Position numbers and translations under genes: made by a program. From Clostridia bacterium (GTDB taxonomy: Bacteria; Bacillota; Clostridia; Oscillospirales; Acutalibacteraceae), in assembly GCA_017410195.1 (NCBI GenBank), contig JAFQRF010000062.1, positions 1 through 45,326 of the forward strand: 45,326 bases of DNA, given 5' to 3'. Below are positions 1,899 through 20,539 of this stretch, piece by piece (the stretch's first letter is position 1; each line of letters starts with the position of its first letter). The notes below the pieces were generated by a model. It was not told where the DNA came from. It searched no databases and saw only the letters and a list, made by a program, of their open reading frames with translations.

Positions 1899-1925
1899 AC
1901 AGACCAATTCTTTTCTTCTTACGTC
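1899..1925 (+). promoter_or_regulatory. Putative ECF-sigma promoter of the sigma-factor gene
   Basis: ACAGACCAA at 1899-1907, 14 bases, then CGTC at 1922-1925, 60 bases before the ATG and behind an A-rich tract. Taking CAGACC as the -35 core gives a 16-base gap to CGT, the spacing seen in ECF promoters such as the SigW type (TGAAAC, 16, CGTA). The same element at the same spacing stands before 19289. No sigma-A-type promoter is evident here. The promoter role is inferred; the shared motif is seen directly. Confidence 0.65.
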
Positions 1926-1981
1926 TTAATAGTGTTGGGCATAAAAAATGCGTAAATATTTCCGGAAACGGAGGATAAATC

Positions 1982-4276
1982 ATGAAGGACAGCCAAGAAA
2001 GAATTAACGAACTTGCAGGAAAACTTAAAAAGGGTGACCAATCAGCTTTTGAAGAGCTTTATATGCTTACAAGCTCAAAGGCTTATTTCATTGCACTTAA
2101 AATTTGCGGAGATAAGCATGATGCTGAAGATATTGTTCAAGAAAGCTATGTTACTGCTCTTGCAAGAATTTCCACACTTGAAAAAACGGAGAGCTTTATG
2201 AGTTGGTTTAATCGAATCGTTGCAAACAAAAGTAAGGATTTTCTAAGAAAAAATAACCCTGATCTTTTTACGGAGGAAGAAGAAAGACTGCTCGGAAACA
2301 CCCTTGAGAACGGAGAGACTTTTTCTCCGGAAGCAAACATTGACCGCGAAGAACTCAGAACAGCGGTTATGAGTGCTGTGGATGAGCTTGCGGTTGAAAA
2401 GCGAGCTTGCGTTCTTATGAAATATTTTGAGGATATGAGTGTTATCGAGATTGCGGAAAGCATGGAGATTCCCGTTAGTACTGTCAAAAACAGATTGTGG
2501 AGCGCACGTAAGGAATTGAAATCCATGTTTGAAAGAAGAGGATTGACTGCGGCTTACAGTGTTGCGCCTTTCGGTGTTGTGACTTGGGCACTCAATTCAA
2601 CCTTCGAGACGGTTGCGCAGTCATTTGAAGGCAGCGCAACAGCGGCAAAAATCTTTTCTGGCATTGCGGTTGCAGGCACGGCAGCGGCAACCGGTGCGGC
2701 GGTGAGCGCAACTGCAGGAACAGCTGCGACAGGTACCGGCATTTTTGCAAAGGCAGCAGCGGCATCAACAATGCAGAAAATCGTTTCGGGACTGGTTGTT
2801 GCGGGAGTCGTGACGGGTTCAACAGTTGGAATAACCTCTGTTGTAAAAAATAATAAGAATACAGAAGATATTATTCCGACAACATCTTATACCGAAACCG
2901 TTGATTACAAAGCTGTACATGAGCCTGAGATACCCGTAGTGAACGAGGTTGCAGTTGACGCCGAAAACAAGGAAAGCGAAAAATACTCAACCAAAACCCT
3001 TGATTTCGGAGACCCTAAAAAAATGTCAGAAAAGGTTGATTACAAAGGAACCTTGAAGCTCGGTGATAACCATGTTGAATTTGAAGACGGTGTAAGCACA
3101 TACTACGTTAATTTCGAAGTTGAAGAACCGGGATATTATCTGTTTACCAGCGACCGTAAGGATATGTATACCTTCAGCTGGGTTTTCGTTCCTGAGGATT
3201 CACAGAGCGGTCAAATAGATGGTTATTATTCGGCGGTAATAAGCCCTTATGAAAATGAAGATATTCTGGAATATTTCGAAGCCGGCGAGCATACACTTCT
3301 CATTTCGAGAACCGAGGGCATAGATTCAACCGGTGTTAACGTTGAATATTTAGGCGAAGAGATAACGGATATTCAGATTGAGCAGGAAGACCTTGACAAT
3401 GTTATTTTGGGTTATGATGAAATCACTAAACGTGATGAAAGGGATAAGAACATGTTTTGGGTTATCGCGCATGATATGACCGAGGGGGAAGAAGGTTTAT
3501 ACGGAAATTCTTTCAGAACAAAGATTATCTTTTCTTCGGGAAAGGTGCATGATATGGGAGATGTGGGATTAAGCTACCATGTCAAAGGCGGAAAACTCAA
3601 GGAAGGAAAAAATACGGTAACATTTGAGTTGGGAGAAAAATTCGGCTTTCACAAGGAGTTTGTAATAACAGCGCATTCTCCGAAAGAATATGTAAAAGAT
3701 ATCGAGGTAAGTAACATTGATGAATTCAAAAAGGTAAAAATCAATGAGGAGGGCTTTATCCACAGCAAGCCCGAAAATTATGAGGTTACCGTAACCTATG
3801 CCGACGGAAGAAAAGAAACCTTTGACGGTGCAACATGGGACAGATTTATTGAACTTGACGACGGAAGAAAGCTTTTGGTTGTGTTTAACAGAGCAAGAGA
3901 AGACATGAGCATGGATTACAGGCTTCGCAGCAGAGATTATCTGCGCTTCAGAGTTTCAATCGGTGAAACCGATTACATTGACGAAGTCTGTACCGTTAAA
4001 GAATTCGATGTCATCGGCTACAGAAAAAGGCTTGACCAAAACAATCTTGAAGAAGTAAGAGAATATACCGTTAACATTGAAGATGGCATTGATCTTATGA
4101 AAGAAAATGCGGGCAGCGTTGAAGATTTTTTGTGGTATTCTGCGGAGCTTTCAAAAATAACCGGTTATAATTCTTATAAAATTGTCAAAAGAATCGCAGG
4201 TTTTGAACTCGACTATGCGATAACAACTTATAGAATTCTTACGAAAAATGAGTTTGATTTGTTCCAAAAAATATGA
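1982..4276 (+). CDS. ECF-type sigma factor fused to a membrane segment and large extracytoplasmic domain
   Basis: 764 residues, about four times a normal ECF sigma factor. Residues ~18-90 are sigma region 2 (FEELYMLT, DAEDIVQESY, WFNRIVANKSKDFLR) and ~128-185 are region 4, with the helix-turn-helix MSVIEIAESMEIPVSTVKNRL. Two Ala/Gly-rich hydrophobic stretches follow (~222-250 and ~264-288); the second is a good transmembrane helix, placing residues from ~290 outside. The outer part has beta-rich modules (EPGYYLFTS; ITDIQIEQEDLDNVILGY at 461-478; YVKDIEVSNIDE at 570-581) that align in order with the secreted protein at 19289-20539. ATG 1982 follows a good GGAGG. Inference: a one-component sensor in which an outside signal controls release or activity of the sigma domain, by proteolysis or otherwise. 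No separate anti-sigma gene is adjacent, so the fused region may take that role. Domain calls for sigma 2/4 are firm; the mechanism is not known. Confidence 0.88.
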   Translation: MKDSQERINELAGKLKKGDQSAFEELYMLTSSKAYFIALKICGDKHDAEDIVQESYVTALARISTLEKTESFMSWFNRIVANKSKDFLRKNNPDLFTEEEERLLGNTLENGETFSPEANIDREELRTAVMSAVDELAVEKRACVLMKYFEDMSVIEIAESMEIPVSTVKNRLWSARKELKSMFERRGLTAAYSVAPFGVVTWALNSTFETVAQSFEGSATAAKIFSGIAVAGTAAATGAAVSATAGTAATGTGIFAKAAAASTMQKIVSGLVVAGVVTGSTVGITSVVKNNKNTEDIIPTTSYTETVDYKAVHEPEIPVVNEVAVDAENKESEKYSTKTLDFGDPKKMSEKVDYKGTLKLGDNHVEFEDGVSTYYVNFEVEEPGYYLFTSDRKDMYTFSWVFVPEDSQSGQIDGYYSAVISPYENEDILEYFEAGEHTLLISRTEGIDSTGVNVEYLGEEITDIQIEQEDLDNVILGYDEITKRDERDKNMFWVIAHDMTEGEEGLYGNSFRTKIIFSSGKVHDMGDVGLSYHVKGGKLKEGKNTVTFELGEKFGFHKEFVITAHSPKEYVKDIEVSNIDEFKKVKINEEGFIHSKPENYEVTVTYADGRKETFDGATWDRFIELDDGRKLLVVFNRAREDMSMDYRLRSRDYLRFRVSIGETDYIDEVCTVKEFDVIGYRKRLDQNNLEEVREYTVNIEDGIDLMKENAGSVEDFLWYSAELSKITGYNSYKIVKRIAGFELDYAITTYRILTKNEFDLFQKI

Positions 4277-4283
4277 TATAAAA

Positions 4284-4312
4284 AGCGCCGCAGATTCAAA
4301 ATCTGCAGCGCT
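4284..4312. terminator. Bidirectional terminator between convergent genes
   Basis: Thirteen-base stem 4284-4296 with 4300-4312 and loop CAA, one mismatch on the plus strand that becomes a G-U pair on the minus strand. T-rich sequence follows on the plus side (from 4313) and A-rich sequence precedes it (T-rich on the minus side), so it can end both the sigma gene and the minus-strand gene ending at 4320. Confidence 0.85.
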
Positions 4313-4319
4313 TAATTTT

Positions 4320-5261
4320 TTATTTTTTAACTTTATTTGTCTTCTCTTTCGTCGAGGGTTTACCCGATTTTTCAAGAAGAACGAGAAGCAGACACCAGAA
4401 GGCGGCGAGAAGAACAAAGAGAATACAAACGAGAATAGCATTCTCAATTGCGAAGCTCAGAAGTCCGCCGACTGCCGGTAAGTAGCTTTTAACAATTCCG
4501 TAACAATCCGATGCTAACATGGTATATGGCAATTGATTTGAATTGGTTATATCAGTGGTGAATATCTCTGCATCTTCAAGACCGAGTGCGGATGCTGAAT
4601 TAATCATGTGAATGTCGCAGCCGGATGTTGTTGCCGAGGGAACGCAAAGAAGTTCTTCTGCCACATATTCATCGGGTTCAACCATTTTTGAAATGATAAG
4701 GTCGCCTTTTGAAACGAGTTTTTTGCCATTGGACTTCAGTATATCTGCGCTCATTGTGTTGAAGCAGAATCCTCCGATGTTTGAACCGCCGTTGTCGAGG
4801 AAAATCGAAACAAAGCATCCGAGGACAAAAACAACTACCGTTGCGGCAAGCAGAATTATCGAAATAATTTTGCCGGCTAATGCACCTTTGTTTTTCTTTT
4901 GGGGAGCTGATTCAACTTCTGTTTCTCCGTAATTGATGTTAGGGATAAACGGTGCGTTTTCCTGCTGTGCAGGTGCACCGACGGGGGAATAGCCTGCATT
5001 ATTCTGACCGATGGGAACAAGCGGTCTGGGCTTCTTTTCCTTCTTTTCGGGCTGAGGTGAATATGTAGGCTCCGCATCAAGCGACTGAGCAGGCTTTGAA
5101 AAATAACCCGAACTGCTTATATCCTGCGGTTTTGAGCTTGAATCGTTTGTTTTCTGCTGAGGAGCGGACACAAACTGATTTGCAGCGGATGTCTGCCCGC
5201 GTGTTTTAGAAACAAATTCAAGGTCAAGCTCATCTATGCTTTTAAGTTTGAACTGATCCAT
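4320..5261 (-). CDS. Membrane protein with divergent SipW-like (S26B) signal peptidase domain
   Basis: 313 residues from ATG 5261, preferred over an upstream TTG at 5282 because GAAAGG lies just upstream of the ATG. Residues ~1-125 are a hydrophilic Ser/Pro/Gln-rich cytoplasmic region; a first membrane helix (KIISIILLAATVVVFVLGC) follows, then an outside segment and a second helix near the C-terminus (AILVCILFVLLAAFWCLLL). The outer segment has the order of SipW/archaeal signal peptidases: a serine block (NTMSADI), KGDLIISKM, a histidine in CDIHMIN, and YGIVKSYLPAVGGLLSF. It departs from the usual SGSMEP block, so it may be a divergent peptidase or an inactive relative. It follows the DivIVA-like gene by 33 bases, and the pair probably forms one transcript. 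Confidence 0.6.
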   Translation of the reverse strand: MDQFKLKSIDELDLEFVSKTRGQTSAANQFVSAPQQKTNDSSSKPQDISSSGYFSKPAQSLDAEPTYSPQPEKKEKKPRPLVPIGQNNAGYSPVGAPAQQENAPFIPNINYGETEVESAPQKKNKGALAGKIISIILLAATVVVFVLGCFVSIFLDNGGSNIGGFCFNTMSADILKSNGKKLVSKGDLIISKMVEPDEYVAEELLCVPSATTSGCDIHMINSASALGLEDAEIFTTDITNSNQLPYTMLASDCYGIVKSYLPAVGGLLSFAIENAILVCILFVLLAAFWCLLLVLLEKSGKPSTKEKTNKVKK

Positions 5262-5294
5262 ATCGGTTATACTGCCTTTCAACTAAGATAATGA

Positions 5295-5787: not shown

Positions 5788-5816
5788 TTGATTTTGCTGC
5801 AGATAATTGATATAAT
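5788..5816 (+). promoter_or_regulatory. Sigma-A-type promoter for the acyl-amido synthetase gene
   Basis: TTGATT at 5788-5793, 17 bases, perfect TATAAT at 5811-5816, 38 bases before the ATG at 5854. Because this promoter sits inside the longest open frame, it argues against a TTG start at 5788. Confidence 0.7.
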
Positions 5817-5853
5817 TAAAAAAGTTAAAATAAAGACAGGATGTGAATCAACT

Positions 5854-7584
5854 ATGCCTTTTTCAGACCTCGGTGTTTTGCTCGGAGATGTTTCTTTGCT
5901 TGAAATTGAGCATCACACAAAAAATCCTATGAAAGCGCAGGAGAATACATTAAAAAAGATTCTCGAAAGAAACAAAAATTGCGAAATCGGAAAAAAATAT
6001 AATTTTAAGGATATCAGATCCATCAGGGAATTCCAGGAAAAGCTTCCGATTACAACCTACGAAGACTATGAGTCCTATGTTGAAAGAATGCTTTTCAACA
6101 AAGAAAAGAACATAATGTTCACAGGCCCCAATATCAGATATTGTTCATCCTCAGGCAGTGTCGGCAAGCCGAAGATTCTGCCCAAATCAATAAAAGATCT
6201 CTGGAACATGCAGTGCATCGGTTTTTCATGCACGGTTGCAACCGCTGCTCATCACCTTAAGAAGGTTAAGGGAATAAAAATGCCTGCTCAGATGGGTCCT
6301 CTTGCTCTCGTTCTTACCGGTCACAGACTCGAAGACGGCAAGCAGTGCAACGGAGCAGGTCAGATTCCTCTTACTTATTTGAAAGCTATTCTTCCTTTTT
6401 TCTGCACTTCGCCTGTATCTCTTCTTTTTCCCGAGCATGAGGAGCTTCTTGATACGTCATATCTTCAGCTGCGTTTTGCTCTTGAAAACAGAAAGGTCAG
6501 TTACCTCGGCTCGATAGTCATAACCCTGCTTACAACAATGTTTGACTATCTTGAAGAGAACTGGCAGATGCTCTGCGATGATATCGAAAAAGGTATAATC
6601 AACCCCAAAGTGAAAATTACTCCCGAAGCATATGCCGAATATTCAGGAAAATTCAAGCCTAATCCCCGAAGAGCGGCAGAGCTTCGCAAGGAATTTGAAA
6701 AGGGATTTGACACTCCGATTGCTCCGAGAATATGGCCTATGCTTACATGGGCGTATGGAATGATTGGTGCAAATCTTAAGGTTTACGTTGAAAAACTGCG
6801 CAAATCGATCGGTCCCGATATTCCCATCCATAACATGGGTTATGCGGCTGCAGAGGGCTTCTTTGCTATGCCTACGGAGCTTGATGTCCACGACGGTGTT
6901 CTTCTTCCCCACTGCATTTTCTTTGAGTTCCTTCCGGTTGATGATGATGCCGAGGATGCGGACGATAACGCAAAACCGCTTCTTATTTCCGAGCTTGAAA
7001 TCGGCAAGAAATATGAGGTTATCGTTACCAATTTCTCGGGTCTTTACAGATACAGAATCGAAGATGTTGTCACCGTTACAAAGATGCACAACAACACACC
7101 GAGAATTGAGCTTCTTTACAGACGCAATCTCAGCCTTAACATTGCGAATGAGAAGTCAACAACCCAGATGGTTGACTTTGCCGCAAAAGAAACGGCGAAT
7201 AAAATGGGCAATGAGTTTGTCGGTCACAGCTTCTATGCCGACTATACCACAAATCCGCCGCGTTACTGCATGCTTGCAGAGCCGAAAAATCCCGTTTCAG
7301 AAGAAGAAAGACAGAAATATATTGATGTTCTGGATAATGAGCTTAATGAAGTTAACGAAAAATATTTCAAATACAGACGTTGGGGCATGCTCGGGAGACC
7401 CGAGGTTCTTTTTCTCAAAGAAAAGACCTACTGGGACTACAGAGAGTATCTGCGTTCAAAGGGCGTTGTTTTAAATCAGGTAAAGCCCGTTACGGTGCTT
7501 AATACGGAAGAAAGATGTGATTTCTTCTTCTCGCATGTTGCAACCGAAACAAAGCTGCCTTATATCCCTAAAGAAAGCAAATAA
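5854..7584 (+). CDS. GH3-type (auxin-responsive) acyl-amido synthetase family protein
   Basis: 576 residues from ATG 5854, chosen because AGGATGTG precedes it and a promoter occupies the upstream frame. The protein belongs to the GH3/JAR1 branch of the ANL adenylating superfamily, whose plant members join amino acids to acyl hormones through an acyl-AMP. Seen: the N-terminal ERNKNCEIGKKYNF region, FQEKLPITTYEDYESYV, the phosphate loop CSSSGSVGKPKILP, a YAAAEGFF block, and LYRYRIEDVV, the conserved GLYRYRIGDVV-like motif before the C-terminal lid. No signal peptide, so cytoplasmic. The bacterial substrate is unknown. The next gene starts 17 bases downstream and is probably cotranscribed. Confidence 0.85.
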   Translation: MPFSDLGVLLGDVSLLEIEHHTKNPMKAQENTLKKILERNKNCEIGKKYNFKDIRSIREFQEKLPITTYEDYESYVERMLFNKEKNIMFTGPNIRYCSSSGSVGKPKILPKSIKDLWNMQCIGFSCTVATAAHHLKKVKGIKMPAQMGPLALVLTGHRLEDGKQCNGAGQIPLTYLKAILPFFCTSPVSLLFPEHEELLDTSYLQLRFALENRKVSYLGSIVITLLTTMFDYLEENWQMLCDDIEKGIINPKVKITPEAYAEYSGKFKPNPRRAAELRKEFEKGFDTPIAPRIWPMLTWAYGMIGANLKVYVEKLRKSIGPDIPIHNMGYAAAEGFFAMPTELDVHDGVLLPHCIFFEFLPVDDDAEDADDNAKPLLISELEIGKKYEVIVTNFSGLYRYRIEDVVTVTKMHNNTPRIELLYRRNLSLNIANEKSTTQMVDFAAKETANKMGNEFVGHSFYADYTTNPPRYCMLAEPKNPVSEEERQKYIDVLDNELNEVNEKYFKYRRWGMLGRPEVLFLKEKTYWDYREYLRSKGVVLNQVKPVTVLNTEERCDFFFSHVATETKLPYIPKESK

Positions 7585-19214: not shown

Positions 19215-19240
19215 ACAGACCAAATCCCCTTCTCAATCGT
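19215..19240 (+). promoter_or_regulatory. Putative ECF-sigma promoter, same motif as at 1899
   Basis: ACAGACCAA at 19215-19223, 14 bases, CGT at 19238-19240, 51 bases before the ATG and preceded by A-rich DNA, as upstream of the sigma gene. Nine plus three identical bases at identical spacing before the only two genes sharing the outer domain is unlikely to be chance. Confidence 0.65.
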
Positions 19241-19288
19241 TATATATATGAAGAGTTAAATTCTTAAAAAGTAAAGGAGGACTATTCA

Positions 19289-20539
19289 ATGAAAAGGAAA
19301 TTAAAAATTATCGCTCTTGTTTTTATGCTGATTTCTCTGCTTGCGGTCGGTGCGTTTGCTCAGGATAAAACAATTGAATGGGATTACGGCGGAGAGGAAT
19401 CACCCAGAGAAACATACAGTTTCGGCGGTCAGCTTCAGGTCGGTGATAACAAGGTTTCGCCCTTGACGGATGCATATAATATCATTTTCAGCGATTATTA
19501 CAGTGAAAATGTTTATTATGAATTCGATGTTGAAAAGAGCGGATACTATGATTTTGAAACCGTATCCGATGCATATTACGGCATTTATATTTCTCAGGAT
19601 ATAAAAGACGGCGTTGCTTACGGCGATGCGGAATATCTGACTTTTGAGGATGAGGGGTATAAGGTTTATCTTGAAGAAGGCGAATGCGTTGTCGGTCTGA
19701 TATTCTATTTCTATGACTGGAACGGATTAGGCGATATTTATAACAGCGAGCTAAATATTGAATTTATCGGTTCGGAAATAACCGATTTGCAGATTGCTGA
19801 TGAATACCTTGAAAATATAATTCTCGGCTATCACATCGCAACCGAGTATGACGAAGAAAATATCTGCAGTATTCTTGCGGAAGGCAAGCTTGTGTTTGAT
19901 TCGGACAAGGAGTACGAGTTTTTTGAATATCTTGATGTCAGGTATTCGGATGATATTGCTCCGGGCGAAAACATAATCACGTTTATGCTTCCGAATTATG
20001 AAAAAGAATATGCCGTGAAGATTAAAACGGTTGACGATTATATAAAGGATATCGAAGTCGGAAACATTGAAGAGGCAACGGTTGTTAAAGAAACATTTAT
20101 GCCCGATATTGTTTTTCAGCCCGATGAATATATCGAGATTATTATAACATTGCCCGACGGCACAAAGAAAAACGATGATTATATTGTTGAGCTTAACGGT
20201 GACAACTATATATGGATAACTTATGATTACATTCAGAAGGACGACGGCAAATGGTATTTTGTTGTTTCGGCAGCCGATAAGGAATATGTCTGCGAACCCT
20301 GCGAAACCGTTACGGCATCGTTTGATGAAAATTTAGGCTTGTATTGGAGCAGCGTGCTGGAATATGCAGTCGGGATGATAGGCGAAACATCGTGGTATTT
20401 GACCGATGCTTTTGATATGTTCTCGGGATTGAGTGTCGGCGAGAGAATGGAATATATCTCAATTGTGTTTTCTGAATTGAAAGAATATTATACCGAGGTT
20501 TACAATCTGACAGAATTGTTTATGAATTCTGTTTTTTAA
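19289..20539 (+). CDS. Secreted paralog of the sigma factor's extracytoplasmic domain
   Basis: 416 residues with a clean signal peptide (KIIALVFMLISLLAVGAFA-Q) and no later membrane helix or sortase motif seen. ATG 19289 follows AAAGGAGG. The mature protein is acidic and Tyr/Asp-rich and aligns in order with residues ~350-650 of the sigma fusion: LQVGDN with LKLGDN; SGYYDF with PGYYLF; ITDLQIADEYLENIILGY (164-181) with its counterpart, 12 of 18 identical; YIKDIEVGNIEE (251-262), 9 of 12 identical; then a PDEY-EIIITLPDG strand matching PENYEVTVTYADG. Function unknown; I infer a ligand, decoy or co-sensor for the sigma factor, which probably drives it. A terminator follows. Confidence 0.85.
   Translation: MKRKLKIIALVFMLISLLAVGAFAQDKTIEWDYGGEESPRETYSFGGQLQVGDNKVSPLTDAYNIIFSDYYSENVYYEFDVEKSGYYDFETVSDAYYGIYISQDIKDGVAYGDAEYLTFEDEGYKVYLEEGECVVGLIFYFYDWNGLGDIYNSELNIEFIGSEITDLQIADEYLENIILGYHIATEYDEENICSILAEGKLVFDSDKEYEFFEYLDVRYSDDIAPGENIITFMLPNYEKEYAVKIKTVDDYIKDIEVGNIEEATVVKETFMPDIVFQPDEYIEIIITLPDGTKKNDDYIVELNGDNYIWITYDYIQKDDGKWYFVVSAADKEYVCEPCETVTASFDENLGLYWSSVLEYAVGMIGETSWYLTDAFDMFSGLSVGERMEYISIVFSELKEYYTEVYNLTELFMNSVF

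Follow-up and report, generated by a model that had tools for sequence, protein, structure and literature searches.

Can a single protein be both an ECF sigma factor and its own membrane receptor? The question is raised by a 764-residue protein encoded on the forward strand at positions 1982..4276 of the 45,326-nt stretch of clostridial DNA analyzed here (the window). A first-pass annotation of the sequence described a complete ECF-like sigma2/sigma4 pair fused in frame to several hydrophobic segments and a ~475-residue beta-rich outer domain, and proposed that sensing and transcription are joined in one chain. The gene is a single intact ORF that starts with ATG and is preceded by GGAGG, a good ribosome-binding site. 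Sigma70 region 2 (residues 32-92; 2075..2257, + strand) and region 4 (residues 128-179; 2363..2518, + strand) match Pfam PF04542 Sigma70_r2 (E 3.4e-11) and PF08281 Sigma70_r4_2 (E 1.3e-11), both above cut-off, which bears out the complete pair. With these two families and no other sigma region in Pfam, sigma3 included, the protein classifies as an ECF (group 4) factor, and it scores 92.7 bits against TIGR02937 (cut-off 42.9). SigW of Bacillus subtilis is both its nearest solved structure (residues 12-181, E 7.5e-25) and its closest curated sigma model (NCBIfam NF007223, 121.5 bits), yet the score falls below the equivalog cut-off of 209. A frameshift or an assembly chimera is ruled out by the occurrence of the same full-length protein in other genomes. 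The fusion of sigma, membrane and outer domains is real and conserved.

Hydropathy (19-residue window) peaks at residues 267-285 (1.82), with a weaker maximum at 224-242 (1.51), and does not exceed 0.43 in the 471 residues beyond the membrane segment. The predicted membrane-spanning segment (residues 264-289; 2771..2848, + strand) is conserved in 32/32 aligned fused relatives; residues 264-290 are gap-free in every row, and the peak reaches at least 1.43 in all 32 and at least 1.5 in 30. A crossing is thus predicted within residues 220-290, the range in which the original reading required one, but of the several hydrophobic segments described after the sigma domains only this one is a reliable crossing. 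Residues 187-259 reach 1.5 in nine of the 32 relatives, and most remaining rows lie at 1.2-1.5. This region begins, directly after sigma4, with a hydrophobic stretch that is conserved in the alignment (residues 187-215; 2540..2626, + strand), in which A195 and P196 are at least 90% conserved and A203 is invariant (24 rows). A similar stretch is recognizable by eye in other genera, and we infer that it is a candidate self-inhibitory or sigma-docking element. The Ala/Gly-rich linker that follows (residues 216-263; 2627..2770, + strand) is variable in the alignment; homologue L023 has lost part of the 187-259 stretch, including part of this linker.

Might the hydrophobic part be no anchor at all, the protein being a soluble cytoplasmic sigma that is regulated by its C-terminal domain, as ECF41/ECF42 factors are? 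The segment is rich in Gly, Val, Ser and Thr and only moderately hydrophobic (1.82), as would suit such a protein. We consider this reading very improbable, given that the segment is free of gaps in all 32 relatives, that the domains downstream include CAP and LRR_5, and that homologues of the outer domain have signal-peptide-like starts.

These homologues also bear on topology. Residues 293-764 (2858..4273, + strand) form a predicted extracytoplasmic domain that is homologous to secreted proteins. The ~470 residues beyond the segment agree with the length first proposed; their beta-rich character is no more than hinted at by crude Chou-Fasman averages, which give 36% strand and 26% helix for residues 340-690, compared with 25% and 62% for the sigma part and 41% and 50% for the last 74 residues. 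No Pfam family matches residues 293-764 above cut-off, the sole match being FokI_dom_2 below it, and the best match among solved structures is no better than E 0.32. A second gene in the window (19289..20539, + strand) encodes a stand-alone homologue of 416 aa without a sigma domain, identified by sequence match, which is 35% identical to residues 339-636 of the sigma protein (E 5.1e-13). Five secreted homologues of this kind were found in the same genome (G000). Stand-alone homologues, including the product of 19289..20539, have signal-peptide-like starts by eye; if they are exported, the outer domain of the fused sigma most likely lies outside, which fits one crossing. A second crossing is disfavored both by the deletion in L023 and by the secreted homologues, which suggest that the C-terminal half is outside. 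We therefore prefer a single reliable crossing over several, two being still compatible with hydropathy alone.

In a set of 60 related genomes that counts the source genome, the fused protein has matches at E<=1e-40 in 19, all within the 37 of the same genus; those of its relatives that are named come from Clostridia MAGs. A profile of the sigma-to-membrane core matched 12 of the 197 genomes from the order at E<=1e-45, spread over 12 of the 111 genera sampled. Loci from nine of the 11 other genera each encode a hydrophobic segment after sigma, and one of the nine has a second, weaker segment near the C-terminus. Mean pairwise identity among 32 relatives is 0.54 in sigma2, 0.50 in sigma4, 0.39 in residues 187-215 and 0.45 in the membrane segment; in the outer part it is 0.05-0.16. 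Pfam recognizes CAP in 4/32 and BspA-type LRR (LRR_5) in 2/32 of these outer domains, and WG repeats, Big_2 and Cu_amine_oxidN1 in one each of the nine other-genus loci. A constant sigma-membrane core combined with differing outer domains looks like a sensor family. L008 (G000 contig 14) encodes another long sigma-like protein, which has a strong hydrophobic segment and, by eye, WG-like repeats.

Free sigma genes of 191-208 residues that lack the membrane half occur once each in the source genome and in G011, with shared neighbors. In a sigma tree rooted by one distant outgroup, the two nest within the fused clade (support 97/88), so the membrane half was probably lost. Their existence suggests that the sigma half can stand alone as a gene product, which a model of sigma release would need.

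No recognized anti-sigma or protease gene adjoins 1982..4276 in the window (Pfam; gene 44-1045 judged by eye). The convergent neighbor, 4320-5282, has no Pfam match; between the two genes the sequence contains a terminator-like inverted repeat with flanking A and T runs (4284..4319, no strand assigned). Nor is an anti-sigma or protease gene a constant neighbor in nine related loci, L047-L055 (ORFs by eye, flanks of up to 3 kb, with a Pfam scan of neighbors covering two protease genes only). The reported absence of an adjacent anti-sigma or site-1/site-2 protease gene holds within these limits, and a linked anti-sigma gene was rejected. Neither zinc-finger nor FecR nor any other anti-sigma family appears among the Pfam matches of the 32 relatives (25 families) and of the nine other-genus loci. 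In another branch, two fused sigma genes (L055 3001-6296 and L053 2989-6337) are directly followed by a gene for a papain-type (Peptidase_C1) protease, possibly a dedicated site-1 protease. Elsewhere in the window, 5788-7584 encodes a full-length protein of the Pfam GH3 family, to which the plant auxin/jasmonate acyl-amido synthetases belong, here in a gut Clostridia genome; 43471-44724, near the window end, encodes a large serine recombinase with DUF4368 that possibly marks a mobile element.

Does the sigma half work as a sigma factor, and on which promoters? Comparison of the DNA upstream of the 1982..4276 gene with that of its paralogue L002, and then of a secreted homologue, yielded the pattern GACCAA-N14-CGT. 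The predicted autoregulatory ECF promoter obtained by this motif comparison, GACCAA-N14-CGTCTT, lies at 1902..1927 (+ strand); the chance expectation for GACCAA-N12..16-CGTCTT in the window is 0.01. The second copy in the window, a near form (GACCAA-N14-CGTTAT; 19218..19243, + strand), precedes the secreted homologue at 19289..20539. GACCAA-N14-CGTC is present upstream of 8/9 distinct full-length homologues, the 1982..4276 gene included, when the identical pairs L047/L019, L049/L020 and L050/L023 are each counted once; two of the eight (L048, L020) are closely related and have the same site. The -10 forms are CGTCTT in five, CGTCTA in two and CGTCAT in one, and the ninth homologue, L023 (= L133), has a weak copy of 12 bits. 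That the motif is conserved upstream of the gene speaks for a functional sigma domain.

The source genome contains 10 matches to GACCAA-N14-CGTNNT, three of them the sites that yielded the pattern, versus two for the reversed pattern. Across the 60 genomes, the CGTCTT form occurs at 29 sites. These lie in eight of the 12 genomes that have a fused sigma at E<=1e-70 and in 0/48 others; the Fisher value of 1.9e-7 is a guide only, as the restriction to CGTCTT and the E threshold were set after seeing the data and the test ignores kinship of related genomes. This form alone is exclusive: the broader CGTNTT pattern, as searched, has matches in 23/60 genomes, some without the sigma. In four of the 12 genomes (G020, G023, G033 and G034) the close fused sigma is present without a CGTCTT site, and G023 has CGTCTA before its sigma gene. 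In 33 aligned sites, an A directly precedes GACCAA every time, though it lies outside the search pattern, and the sites also share an A/T-rich stretch upstream and TGAAAGG-like bases downstream. Leave-one-out motif scores, which are partly circular because the sites were picked by GACCAA and CGT, are 17-53 bits for 32/33 sites and -11.4 for one, compared with -3.7 for the best of 34 control regions. Negative scores at L104, L107, L127, L152 and L153, where the start or search range was misplaced, are not real misses, nor are those of second and third genes of a cluster, which need no promoter of their own. An ORF of at least 80 aa with a loosely defined Shine-Dalgarno sequence begins within 350 nt of 31/33 sites, a count without control.

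Two of the ten sites in the source genome precede both full-length fused sigma genes, 1982..4276 and its paralogue. All five secreted homologues stand behind the motif or its near form in three units, as judged by spacing, two of the sites being on contig 30 and one (CGTTAT) in the window. Other sites precede an operon of NfeD and flotillin, a transporter of the MFS_2 type, a small gene of unknown family and an M50 peptidase-like gene, the last scoring 28.9 bits in the locus scan (cut-off 27.2) but falling below cut-off in the genome search. The small protein stands behind the motif in two species (L014 1782-2036 and L101, G028 contig 6); in one of them it belongs to a longer protein that seems to begin with a helix-turn-helix. 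A perfect motif at L018 (G000 contig 69, 17299-17324) has no ORF behind it, and by eye a terminator-like hairpin lies ~100 nt downstream, possibly marking a small RNA or the terminator of a convergent gene.

In relatives, translations inspected by eye place the motif upstream of fused sigma genes, of secreted homologues (G011, G006, G032), of NfeD and a similar transporter (G011), of ABC transporters (G006) and of other genes. Together, these sites suggest that the fused sigma activates its own gene along with several secreted proteins resembling its outer domain; perhaps these proteins serve as decoys or as partners in feedback to the receptor, which is a guess. Secreted homologues were rejected as a universal target: exact sites precede them in G000, G011, G006 and G032 only, two of the five secreted genes of G011 lack one, and G022 has five such genes and zero motif matches. 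NfeD/flotillin was likewise rejected as a conserved target, having the motif in two genomes only (2/12 with a located NfeD start, 18 of 30 NfeD loci being unresolved; 2/31 with an NfeD match by the site list). In these two genomes the association is a SigW-like trait and hints at envelope stress, since sigma-W of B. subtilis is described as controlling floA and floT (PMC8581546).

Assignment of the motif to the fused sigma rests on autoregulation and co-occurrence, and the genome holds further ECF-like matches; one of the ten sites lies just behind another sigma-like gene (L014). Another sigma of the genome could thus read the motif, the fused proteins being mere targets. This seems to us quite unlikely, because the only two of the ten sites that precede sigma genes precede the two full-length fused ones, and because the distribution of the CGTCTT form over the 60 genomes follows that of the fused clade.

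How, then, would an extracellular cue reach the promoter? The model that we favor, and hold to be somewhat more probable than its competitors together, is a one-piece envelope-signaling sigma that is tethered, senses through its outer domain, is released by proteolysis and fires promoters of the GACCAA-N14-CGTCTT type. One helix would anchor the cytoplasmic sigma2/sigma4 half at the membrane, with the ~470-residue domain outside sensing a surface or secreted cue. Upon stimulation, the outer part would be trimmed and the membrane helix cut, probably by an RseP-like site-2 protease, freeing a ~30 kDa sigma fragment to bind RNA polymerase and activate its own gene and paralogue, the secreted outer-domain copies and some membrane-related genes. 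Membrane sequestration and the hydrophobic stretch 187-215 are candidates for keeping the factor inactive without an anti-sigma. The genome encodes an RseP-like site-2 protease (226.9 bits, cut-off 147.55) and one S41 (Prc/CtpA-type) peptidase; neither these nor the M50-like gene is next to the fused sigma gene. By analogy with IutY and RsgI, release probably proceeds by intramembrane proteolysis. An xAA triplet is present in the membrane segment of 23/32 relatives and absent from the 764-residue protein. Such triplets are described as a route by which ClpXP destroys released RsgI fragments (PMC12203970), and the freed sigma of the relatives that bear them might likewise be short-lived.

Cleavage may also be dispensable. 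A membrane-tethered holoenzyme would have the anchored sigma active in place, as are the membrane-bound regulators ToxR and CadC, with the outer domain altering its availability. Such an arrangement would suit a fused sigma gene that has no constantly linked protease gene and a product with no recognizable anti-sigma domain that would require destruction, and the conserved hydrophobic stretch and membrane segment could position the sigma. We nevertheless regard it as unlikely. Stand-alone sigma paralogues nest within the clade, which suggests a viable free form; in two other-branch loci the gene directly after that of sigma encodes a papain-type protease; and IutY, described as the only fused ECF factor with an experimentally characterized activation (PMC8999054), is reported to be cut (PMC5411451).

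The proposal that sensing and transcription are joined stands in part, insofar as the fusion is conserved and a motif precedes the gene; that the sigma is its own receptor is our inference, and such a union has precedent in IutY and ECF52. More tentatively, with the odds against it, these proteins could constitute a new class of one-component membrane sigmas of gut Clostridia without an anti-sigma domain, whose regulon includes secreted outer-domain copies as decoys, ligands or feedback partners. The regulon can be tested directly through its promoter motif, and secreted look-alikes of a receptor's outer domain invite the concrete question of whether they take part in cell-surface feedback.

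Among known systems, SigW is short, its model spanning 187 positions, and is paired with a separate anti-sigma, RsiW, whereas the protein described here is fused. Nearer in layout is IutY of Pseudomonas putida (ECF243), which has a FecR-like anti-sigma domain. Like the 764-residue protein, it is reported to be a single polypeptide in which one membrane segment links an ECF sigma to an outer domain; two-step proteolysis by Prc and then RseP frees a ~23 kDa sigma from it (PMC5411451). IutY differs in being 374 aa long, with a periplasmic anti-sigma domain, and in working with an outer-membrane receptor; the outer domain here is larger, and Pfam finds no FecR-like anti-sigma domain in it or in the 32 relatives. 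ECF52 (for example, SCO4117 of Streptomyces coelicolor), ECF48 and ECF53 are described as having a sigma, a membrane region and a long sensor-like outer part; for ECF52/SCO4117 proteolytic release has been proposed and the sigma half alone affects development, and ECF52 contains a zinc-finger domain and is called exclusive to Actinobacteria (PMC5826349, PMC8999054). The 764-residue protein shares the membrane segment after sigma, by hydropathy and conservation; Pfam finds no zinc finger between sigma and membrane region in it or its 32 relatives, and no carbohydrate-binding module in residues 293-764.

The fused groups 48, 52, 53 and 243 are said to carry anti-sigma-like extensions, and ECF115, a Bacillus factor, a C-terminal extension of ~70 residues (PMC8999054). 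The family may work like the fused groups but fails their defining domain tests; a numbered group of the 2021 ECF classification may already include it. A literature search with partial coverage (titles and abstract starts) returned no Clostridia example of a fused or membrane-bound ECF factor. Fused ECF factors are known already; new here are the lack of an anti-sigma domain and the promoter motif GACCAA-N14-CGTC. The SigI/RsgI system of Clostridium thermocellum, whose one-helix sensors are described as having outer domains for different substrates and being cut by RseP (PMC12203970), is likewise a clostridial sensor family with one helix and varied outer domains, but its sigma and sensor are two proteins. 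If our model is correct, uncultured gut Clostridia have shortened the chain of sigma, anti-sigma and sensor to one protein, in which the sigma-membrane core stays constant while the outer sensors differ.
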